From the NCBI RefSeq assembly GCF_900102725.1, contig NZ_FNJW01000008.1, forward strand, positions 1,240,001-1,304,000: DNA of 64,000 nt. Reading direction: 5' to 3'. This DNA comes from Carnobacterium viridans. Its GTDB lineage: Bacteria > Bacillota > Bacilli > Lactobacillales > Carnobacteriaceae. The first letter of the stretch is position 1. Every line of letters begins with the position of its first letter. The notes below the pieces were generated by a model. That model saw only the letters and a list, made by a program, of their open reading frames with translations, searched no databases and was not told the origin of the DNA. Shown here piece after piece: positions 5,700-59,746 of this stretch. The translations under genes were made by a program, and so were the position numbers.

Positions 5700-6694
5700 C
5701 AGTCTTAGTCTTAGGAGGAGCCGGTTATATCGGTTCTCATGCCGTTGATCAATTAATTGAACAACAATATGACGTCACAGTAATCGATAATTTACAAACT
5801 GGACACCGAGGTGCGATTCATAAAAAAGCACGTTTTTACCAAGGAGACATTCGTGACAAAGCCTTTATGGAATCTGTTTTTGAAAAAGAATCGATTGAAG
5901 GAGTTATGCACTTTGCAGCAAATTCTTTAGTGGGAGAATCAATACAACAACCGCTACAATACTTTAATAATAATGTCTATGGAACTCAGGTCACTTTAGA
6001 AGTTATGCAGAAATTCGCTGTTAAATCCATTGTCTTCTCTTCTTCAGCTGCTACTTACGGCGAGCCAAAAGAAGTTCCAATTAAGGAAACTGCAGACACC
6101 AATCCTGAAAGTCCGTATGGAGAAACAAAATTGATGATGGAAAAGATATTGAAATGGTGCGACAAAGCTTATGATATGAAATTTGTTGCTTTACGGTATT
6201 TTAATGTAGCTGGAGCAAAATTAGATGGCAGCATCGGTGAAGATCACTCGCCTGAGTCACATTTAGTTCCTCTTATTTTACAAACGGCTTTAGGACAAAG
6301 AAATGAATTAACCATTTTCGGAGACGATTATGCTACACCAGACGGTACTTGTATCCGTGATTATGTCCATGTAGTCGATTTAGTTGAAGCACATATCTTA
6401 GCACTCGAGTATTTGAAGGCTGGAAATCAAAGTACTGTTTTTAATTTAGGCAGCAGTACTGGTTTTTCAGTCAAAAAGATGCTGGATACTGCACGTGAAG
6501 TTACTGGAAGAGAAATCCCTGCAACAGTAACCGTACGTCGAGCTGGAGATCCTAGTACATTGATTGCTTCAAGCGAGAAAGCAAAAACTATTTTAAATTG
6601 GAAACCTCAATACACAGATATAAAAGATATCATAGCATCAGCTTGGAATTGGCATAAAAACTCTCCTCACGGTTATACAGACACACACAATTAG
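5696..6694 (+). CDS. galE: UDP-glucose 4-epimerase
   Basis: 332-aa extended SDR enzyme interconverting UDP-galactose and UDP-glucose. The NAD-binding motif GGAGYIGSH is at residues 7-15, [10 protein letters not shown] near 115, and the catalytic YxxxK (YGETK) at residues 141-145; YFNVAGA and [10 protein letters not shown] are typical GalE motifs. It overlaps galK by 4 bp and is followed by galT after a short gap, consistent with a single transcript. Confidence 0.97.
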
Positions 6695-6709
6695 AAAGGA
6701 TGAATGTAT

Positions 6710-8213
6710 ATGATCGATCAATCAGTAACCGACTTTATTCAAATCGGTTATCAAAATCAAGAAATTCATCCGTTAGATGTTCTTCTTAAACAAAATCAAT
6801 TGCTCGCCTTGATTGGAAAACAAGCTTTAGATTCAGATATAAAAGCTTCTATGCCATTACCAAATCGTTTGGAAACATTGGATACACTAGTAGATTATGC
6901 TATTCAAGAAAATGTGATTAAAGATTTGGAATCTGAAAGAGACATATTATCCGCAAAAATTATGAATCTCATCACTCCTTTACCTTCTGAAGTAAACTGG
7001 AAATTTTGGGATCTTTATCAAGAAAGCCCTAAATCTGCTACAAATTACTTTTATCACCTTAGTCGGGAAAATGACTATATTAAAACAAGGGCCATTGAAA
7101 AGAATATCGAATTTACCAAATCTACTGTTTATGGTGATTTAGAGATTACAATCAATTTATCTAAACCAGAAAAAGACCCTAAGCAGATAGCTTTGGCTAA
7201 AACAGCTCCTACTTCTTTCGGGTATCCTACTTGTCTATTATGTATGGAAAATGAAGGTTACGAGGGACATATAAATCATCCAGCTAGGAGCAATCATCGT
7301 ATTGTCCGTTTAACTTTAAATCAAGAAAATTGGGGGCTGCAATATTCACCTTATGCTTATTATGAAGAGCATTGTATTTTCCTGTCACAAGAACATAAAC
7401 CAATGAAACTAGAAAAAGCAACATTTGAGAAGCTTTTAAATATAGTAGAACAATTTCCACATTACTTCGTAGGATCCAACGCTGATTTACCGATAGTTGG
7501 AGGCTCTATTCTTTCTCACGATCATTACCAAGGTGGCCAGCACACATTTGCAATGGCAAATGCAGCTACAGAGCATTCTTTTACATTAAAAGATACTCCT
7601 TCTGTAGAAGCTGGAATCGTCAAATGGCCAATGTCAGTCATCCGCCTAAGAAGCGCTAATCAAACAGAATTGATAACTGCTGCAAATCTTATTTTAGATC
7701 AGTGGCGTTTGTATTCAGATAAGTCAGTAGATATTTTAGCTCAGACAAACGGTGAACTTCATAATACGATTACGCCTATCGCAAGATATAAAGAAAAAAA
7801 ATATGAATTAGACTTAGTATTGCGCAATAATCGTACATCACAGCAATATCCTGAAGGAATTTTCCATCCTCATCCTGATGTTCAACATATTAAAAAAGAA
7901 AATATTGGGCTGATTGAAGTAATGGGCTTAGCTATCTTGCCACCAAGACTAAAAAAAGAACTTGTTGAAGTTGAGCACTACTTATTAGATGAACCTCATC
8001 AGTTAGACACTTCTCATCAAGATTGGGCTGATGAATTAAAAAGAACAAAAAAAATTACAAAAGAAACGGTCGGAACAATCGTTGAAGATGCCGTTGGATC
8101 TATTTTTCTGAGAGTACTAGAAGACGCCGGAGTGTATAAACAGAATGCTGAAGGAAAAGCTGCTTTCAAACGATTTATAAATAGTTTTGCTCATTCAAAA
8201 GGAGGAGAAAAGA

Positions 8214-58906: not shown

Positions 58907-59050
58907 AAAAAAAAGAGACTGAATATCAGATTTCCTGACATTCAGCCTCTTTCTTTAACCTAAGAGAAAAGTGTATATATCCACACTTGCACACATTTCT
59001 CTTAGATTTTCATCCGCTTCCTTGTCAGTCTCTCTGGACTGGTTTAAAGG
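58907..59050 (-). promoter_or_regulatory. PyrR-type transcription attenuator of codBA
   Basis: Read leftward from 59050: AGTCCAGAGAGACTGACAAG (59040-59021) matches the PyrR-binding loop (AGUCCAGAGAGGCUnGCAAGG-like) as hairpin CAGTC-CAGAGA-GACTG (59041-59026). Next comes a hairpin TAAGAGAAA...TTTTCTCTTA (59005-58960), and finally a terminator AAAGAG...CTGAAT / ATTCAG...CTCTTTTTTTT (58953-58907) just before codB. Nine bases of the PyrR loop, AGAGACTGA, are complementary to the terminator 3' arm TCAGTCTCT, providing the antiterminator. Pyrimidine-bound PyrR should thus terminate codBA. Confidence 0.82.
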
Positions 59051-59071
59051 TACCTGTATTTACTTAAGCTT

Positions 59072-59174: not shown

Positions 59175-59345
59175 TCAGCATTCAAATAAAGGTTCTTCAT
59201 TTTCTGGCGTTGATAAGGAAATTTCCTCCGGATTACGGGATAGCTTGCGGAAAGCCATGGGACCATTTTGAGCCGAAGAACGCGTCTCAAAACTTGCAAG
59301 CGTCAAACTTAACGTAGCGGCTAAAGCCGAACGCTAAGTAATTCT
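59175..59345. other. GC-rich structured element of unknown function
   Basis: Clearly richer in G and C than its flanks. Read leftward it contains nested CTTAGCG...CGGCT/AGCCG...CGTTAAG, a TTTTGAG...CTCAAAA hairpin with a CGTTCTTCG loop, and GGTCCCATGGC / GGAGGAAATTTCC pieces. One minus frame is open for 52 codons (59333-59175; e.g. ASFETRSSAQNGPMAFRK) without start signal. Upstream of codBA promoter and of the DUF1858 promoter region; could be a small RNA, a repeat element, or gene debris. Confidence 0.4.
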
Positions 59346-59746
59346 CAATGCATCCTCTTTCATGGCTGCAAGCTCCTCCTATTCCTCCGAAAATTTCTGG
59401 AATGTGTTAAAAGAAACTCAATTAATTACTGACCAACGTCAAATGTTGCAGAACCATTTATATCACATACTCTTTTTTAATTCCATTAATTTATACCGAA
59501 ATTTGCTATTATTCAGCTATTGTGTCGGTTTTGTTCACAAGTGATTAATACTAACTAGCATTTTGTTCACTATTTCTTAAACTCTTTTTTATTTTTATGA
59601 CACAAAATCGCTATACTGTAGAGATAGTTTCAGACAATATTCCTACAATAAACGTTGACATTATGACAAAAAACTCACTCATAAATAGTTAATTTTTCTG
59701 TAAAAATTCATTTCCATTCAATATTTTAATTCTAACAGATTCAAAT

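Follow-up and report, generated by a model that had tools for sequence, protein, structure and literature searches.

ISL3-family IS, which are about 1500 bp long and carry a transposase (PF01610), and the MITEs derived from them are the closest described systems to the locus reported here, which lies in a window of 64,000 nucleotides of the Carnobacterium viridans genome. The likeness is in the ends and in the 8-bp target duplication. The element in the window is, in contrast, 265 bp long and has no transposase; seven full ISL3 elements gave no detectable match to its folded core, which was present in one of 1781 bp. RUP and NEMIS/Correia belong to other IS families than ISL3. They and other bacterial MITEs share with our element a short length, the lack of coding sequence, and inverted ends, and can be mobilized by transposases recognizing these ends, according to the accessible parts of two sources, in which order-wide conservation of one fold is not mentioned (PMC3733652, PMC2229807).

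Another relevant system is a repeat of Enterococcus faecalis, known as Efa-1 and, as we assume, also as EFAR, in which Venditti in 2007 reportedly described two stem-loops and a preference for stem-loop targets. EFAR integrates inside stem-loops, replacing a part of them or with loss of the loop. Our copies, in contrast, stand next to a terminator hairpin and have duplicated 8 bp of the target, and EFAR-like integration inside stem-loops was not observed among them; their duplications lie on terminator tails. Size class and fold are similar, as judged by comparison of the descriptions rather than of the sequences. In the available portions of the sources, Efa-1 is given as a structured type I element of 163 bp with 65 (18) copies (PMC2267715), and EFAR appears as a MITE of Enterococci (PMC3733652). 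In the literature covered, with most subscription papers outside it, we recognized no description of an ISL3 MITE in Carnobacterium or of the core.

Extent, composition and copies of the element

The earlier note had pointed to the interval 59175-59345, between codBA and the DUF1858 genes, as GC-rich, hairpin-rich, and without a nameable RNA family. Its location was right, as the element adjoins codBA on one side and the DUF1858 genes on the other, and a real feature is present, but the interval starts 16 bp outside the element and misses its right 110 bp. By alignment with four sister copies (L009-L012), the borders at which similarity ends place the true element at 59191-59455 (265 bp), and a core inside it is conserved well past the range of the element ends. 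Its features are as follows:

59183-59190, plus strand: left flank CAAATAAA; 1/8 match to the right flank ATTTATAT, no target duplication
59191-59455, no strand assigned: whole element (MITE); edges from sister copies L009-L012, all four with 8/8 flanking direct repeats
59191-59214, plus strand: left terminal inverted repeat GGTTCTTCATTTTCTGGCGTTGAT, from the alignment of copies
59219-59397, minus strand: conserved folded core, 179 nt; CM R1 160.5 bits (the window copy itself is in the R1 training set), CM R2 147.8 bits
59243-59259, minus strand: base stem of the core, 3' arm
59266-59292, minus strand: core hairpin 2, with GAGAC...GGCTC; 75% of cells paired as aligned
59307-59339, minus strand: core hairpin 1; two-sided changes in 5/7 pairs
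59361-59373, minus strand: base stem of the core, 5' arm GCTTGCAGCCATG; two-sided changes in 8/15 pairs of the helix
59432-59455, minus strand: right terminal inverted repeat GGTTCTGCAACATTTGACGTTGGT; IRL-like (IRL being the IS end on the 5' side of the transposase gene)
59456-59463: right flank ATTTATAT, differing from the left flank CAAATAAA

Pairing in hairpin 2 rose to 89% of cells after a one-column shift in 11/40 rows. The only other CM R2 match inside the window scored 10.3 bits.

The GC content of the flagged interval was 44.4%, a value reached in 2.9% of 171-bp windows, vs. 35.2% for the window and 33% and 26.5% for the 200-bp flanks of the element, which bears out the contrast with AT-rich surroundings. 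Stable hairpins were likewise found: the fold z-score was −3.7 for the element as DNA and −3.1 for the core as RNA, with 0/200 shuffles as good in either case. Among 400 random 265-bp windows, which were not matched for GC, 3 for the plus strand and 1 for the minus strand had a minimum free energy as low as that of the element as RNA. A search of Rfam gave no match overlapping the element, even at E ≤ 10, in agreement with the earlier note, and the same search on 13 related loci gave two matches only, far below the gathering scores (chance level). Long open frames, previously listed as a feature, were not conserved: in each of the six frames, 0, 1, or 2 of 40 related cores were stop-free (shuffled means 0.7–1.4). 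The lengths of the related cores were spread over all three classes modulo 3. A small protein gene was rejected on the absence of frame conservation. No promoter-like match was found within the window element. Along the minus strand, the element is situated upstream of a strong, near-consensus promoter match (TTGACA-17-AATAAT, 59100-59072) ahead of codBA and of the codBA leader, a PyrR-binding attenuator (RF00515, 55.7 bits) at 58907-59054 (minus strand).

BLAST gave 41 matches to the element in its own genome, and the covariance model gave 96 at E ≤ 0.01 among the 150 of 1234 candidates that were scored; the 40 own copies considered below are those found by BLAST. With a length of 265 bp, no conserved frame, and this copy number, the element is short, non-coding, and multi-copy, as MITEs are; a single-copy non-coding RNA gene was rejected on the same counts. 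The young group consisted of four full sister copies at 97–99% identity with intact ends and two partial copies, and an older group showed 67–79% identity (both by BLAST). Both terminal inverted repeats were above the threshold in 30/40 own copies, including the window copy, and at least one end was missing at this threshold in the other 10, four of which had a variant left end (CTACACCTAGG...) absent from the list of ends used. One truncated young copy (L014, G000:C8:98826-98988) had flanking sequence repeated directly on its two sides and was possibly rearranged. Core length also varied among own matches (e.g., L329-L334, L335, L337, L343, and L344): seven were 264–266 nt long, three alignments of long-core matches showing long inserts in both hairpin loops, and at least eight other own matches listed had short cores of 89–90 nt.

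Mobility, ends and insertion sites

Flanking 8-bp repeats (at least 7/8 identical, at the exact offset) were present in 20/30 two-ended copies and in 17/870 mispaired flanks. When offsets from −1 to 2 were allowed, duplications were found in 25/30 copies vs. 111/870 mispaired flanks. One of the four young copies with 8/8 repeats (L012, G000:C8:1674129-1674464) is nested in an older short MITE, with the 8 bp ATTTAACT duplicated around it, and the uninterrupted form of the older copy is visible in L015, L024, and L033. L012 and these three copies are a natural occupied/empty pair.

ISL3 transposases (PF01610), full or partial, were present in 11/18 genomes of the strain's own family, taken to be Carnobacteriaceae; no such domain was found in the assembly of the strain itself. 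From 70 matches in the family, 30 loci were fetched and 14 examined for ends, and 12 of these 14 had similar ends and 8/8 duplications. Genome G012 has an ISL3 element whose IRL agrees with the young right end at 21/24 positions. For both the older and the third subfamily, an IRR was the best match to the left end (23/24 and 21/24, respectively), and the right end best matched an IRL (21/24 and 22/24). For the window copy, the left end gave the weakest ISL3 match, 18/24 to the IRL of an element in genome G104 vs. a shuffled maximum of 17, followed by 17/24 to both ends of the G012 element; it thus appears neither clearly IRR-like nor clearly IRL-like. Over all ends, shuffled sequences gave means of 8.9–9.9 and maxima of 15–17. 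Since the inverted ends are ISL3-like, 8-bp duplications flank the copies, and L012 is a nested insertion, the element is very probably a full-length non-autonomous MITE of the ISL3 type with a conserved folded core. The earlier suggestion of a mobile-element fragment was thus correct as to mobility but not as to the fragment.

In genome G104, the core lies inside a 1781-bp ISL3 element, between the end of the transposase gene and IRR, and its minus strand in the window corresponds to the transposase strand there. This IS has an 8/8 duplication and an in-frame stop in its transposase gene. None of the 30 fetched ISL3 loci of the family carried the core (0/30), so that a parent IS did not turn up locally; at L146, a single 18-bit core match straddles the IS edge. 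An origin of the core as a piece of ISL3 element interior was rejected because no core similarity was detected in the seven full IS. The MITEs may have lost the gene from a G104-type element; alternatively, the core may be a passenger of independent origin.

The target duplications were 86% A/T. The duplicated 8 bp overlapped the T-tail of a terminator-like hairpin in 18/24 copies (L013, L014, and copies with duplications below 7/8 being excluded from the 40), vs. a mean of 3.35 and a maximum of 7 in 40 rounds in which the duplication was kept and the flanks were shuffled. This control shows that the MITE family prefers the T-tail of predicted intrinsic terminators. Copies in relatives behaved similarly (10/19; shuffled mean 2.8, maximum 6), and full IS showed a weaker preference (4/11; shuffled mean 1.0, maximum 4; 11 of 12 IS with 8/8 duplications were used, L155 being omitted). 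Among AT-matched intergenic positions of the window, 43, 42, and 35 of 300 (convergent, tandem, and divergent, respectively) had a terminator tail. Accordingly, the neighboring genes were convergent for 20 copies, tandem for 22, and divergent for 1, out of 43 (44 copies, one undetermined; open frames of 75 aa or more were taken as genes). Compared to the intergenic regions of the window, divergent sites were underrepresented (P = 0.0016 by counts, 0.00094 by length) and convergent sites overrepresented (P = 0.00016 by counts, 0.01 by length). In the accessible part of a report on Enterococcus faecium, inserted DNA that is bounded on one side by an ISL3-family element has an 8-bp duplication, the insertion lying about halfway along a putative rho-independent terminator (PMC11702846). 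This case is an independent hint, with a target position different from that of the MITE.

The window copy is the sole divergent case among the 43 and, as its flanks match at 1/8 positions, has no target duplication. The strain belongs to the same genus as C. jeotgali, whose DUF1858 protein shares 93% identity with the neighboring one here. In C. jeotgali and genome G003, about 8.3 kb separate the codBA side from the DUF1858 side, both lying on the same strand. These 8.3 kb (G005:C10:474084-482432 in C. jeotgali, G005 being a genome of the genus with matches at the same places as in the named C. jeotgali genome) are absent between the two sides in the window. Six genomes of this genus, ours among them, were compared; the right side was found in four and the left side in three. 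The right-hand homology starts at the first base past the element and the left-hand homology ends 41 bp short of it; a decayed fragment of an older copy (78% over 78 bp; 17.6 bits) lies near codBA there. A recombination or deletion involving element copies likely took place in the lineage of the window strain and would account for the mismatched flanks, the break of synteny, the edges of homology, and the older-copy fragment. The window copy would then probably be a hybrid that joined codBA to the DUF1858 side, the same event having removed the matching target duplication.

Conservation and distribution of the folded core

For the own-family alignment, copies with unclear ends (7/40 own and 23/56 from relatives) were excluded, and the 66 pooled copies were thinned by identity to 40 cores. 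Two-sided changes were found in 19/40 pairs. The observed value lay beyond 500/500 shuffles on each of five measures, although related sequences can also exceed shuffled compensatory changes. When partners were slid along the alignment, pairing fell from 92.5% to at most 57%, a comparison favored by the derivation of the structure from the same 40 sequences. The outermost core helix taken alone showed no covariation above shuffles. The order-wide alignment consisted of 58 matches from 56/63 sources, and two-sided changes occurred in 34/36 predicted pairs, a count that leans upward, as the alignment was fitted to a model of similar structure. The core is therefore a stem with two hairpins, a fold supported by covariation. 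Conserved unpaired letters are found around GAATTA, TTTGAAGC, and CGGT.

The first core model detected the core in 36/395 Lactobacillales genomes belonging to 18/80 genera, and the second model in 4/33 named genomes (C. jeotgali, E. diestrammenae, E. lemanii, and E. aquimarinus). Enterococcaceae had the core in 9/105 genomes. In a class-wide sample of Bacilli, all four positive genomes (4/398) were Lactobacillales. The two richest genomes counted had 96 and 90 model matches, with 150 of the 1234 candidates scored in our strain. BLASTN of window positions 59175-59420 against 50,697 phage and 72,556 plasmid records gave no match at E ≤ 1e-5. ISL3 ends accompany the core in the same family, in E. 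aquimarinus (G280), and in genomes G214 and G104; partial ISL3 ends were found in G188 and perhaps in G084. In E. diestrammenae (G410), six close pairs of cores are inverted, e.g., C10:6335-6518 (minus) and 6622-6813 (plus). Core copies overlap long open frames at L304 (2547-4784, plus) and L305 (2557-2811, minus). Such frames are the likely source of "hypothetical protein" fragments and fit the translated fragments that the earlier note mentioned, with reserve, for other Lactobacillales. That note had named a single copy with no conservation or transcription as the outcome that would speak against it, and had proposed BLASTN and covariance analysis; as to copy number and conservation, these brought out a dispersed repeat, as it had suspected, and a fold conserved across the order.

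Nature of the core and history of the element

It is conceivable, though less likely than not, that the core is a mobile nucleic-acid module in its own right, older than its wrappers, which would have spread via ISL3 elements and other carriers across Lactobacillales and would be selected as base-paired DNA or a both-strand structure, its conserved loop letters being recognized by a host or transposon protein. The choice between DNA and RNA was approached by counting G-U and A-C cells. In the order-wide alignment, they were nearly equal, 41 vs. 36 (14.5 vs. 12.8 over 26 clusters), and G-U made up 2% of standard pairs, despite fitting by a model that permitted G-U on the minus (core) strand only. 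Orientation relative to tandem genes was even, 12 vs. 10 (n = 22, little power). For both of these reasons, we lean toward a structure of both strands. Our guess is that the fold matters as DNA hairpins or in read-through transcripts of either direction.

It is possible, if somewhat doubtful, that the core is instead a mobile structured RNA, transcribed from the minus strand and acting in cis or in trans, with the transposon ends as its vehicle. The strong covariation, the conserved unpaired letters, and the location of the core on the transposase strand in the G104 IS would suit such an RNA, as would the excess of G-U over A-C within the family (77 vs. 21, largely from a few columns; 33.7 vs. 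11.7 clustered at 85%). Against it stand the order-wide balance of G-U and A-C, the even orientation, which has little power, and the lack of a promoter-like match in the window element. A strand-specific RNA signal was thus strong in the own-family alignment and absent order-wide. The structured non-coding RNA proposed earlier stays a candidate: the fold is conserved, but no single RNA strand is marked out, though the own-family counts would fit RNA.

The core could also be an independent hairpin transposon of the EFAR or REP kind that ISL3 elements picked up in several lineages; we regard this, too, as possible but somewhat doubtful. In 13 genomes, with 1–5 copies each, a search reaching 230 bp upstream and 180 bp downstream of the copies gave no convincing ISL3 ends, the surroundings of the core differ, and the inverted pairs of E. 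diestrammenae resemble REP doublets, REP elements being known to occur as inverted doublets. The own copies argue against such a transposon, as 30/40 are bounded left and right by ISL3-type ends, with a duplication in 25 of the 30, and so does genome G188, where an IRR-like match (reached by at most 5% of 40 shuffles) lies near 13/24 copies. Insertion into hairpin stems was not supported for G188 (stem score 3.0 vs. 2.9 mispaired, 24 copies), a weak test because the edges used may lie too far in. A decayed IS remnant with an incidental fold agrees with a genome devoid of the transposase and with the truncation of some copies, but is very improbable given the seven full ISL3 elements in which the core was undetected, the intact ends of the young full copies at 97–99% identity, and the covariation counts, the slid controls above all, together with compensatory changes exceeding all 500 shuffles, though related sequences can do likewise.

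For the element as an ISL3-type MITE, the mechanism may be pictured as follows. An ISL3-family transposase, supplied in trans, would have bound both ends and moved the element. Because the assembly of the strain has no ISL3 transposase, its source may be an IS since lost or an unassembled replicon. Duplication of an 8-bp T-tract can leave the terminator standing beside the insertion, which would therefore be nearly harmless. The core would be retained for its fold.

MITEs are usually seen as decaying debris. The element described here contrasts with this view, as one fold is kept by compensatory change in several families of Lactobacillales. This yields a covariance model for elements absent from Rfam and raises the questions of how ISL3-type elements reach mild sites behind genes and why a non-coding transposon retains a complex fold.
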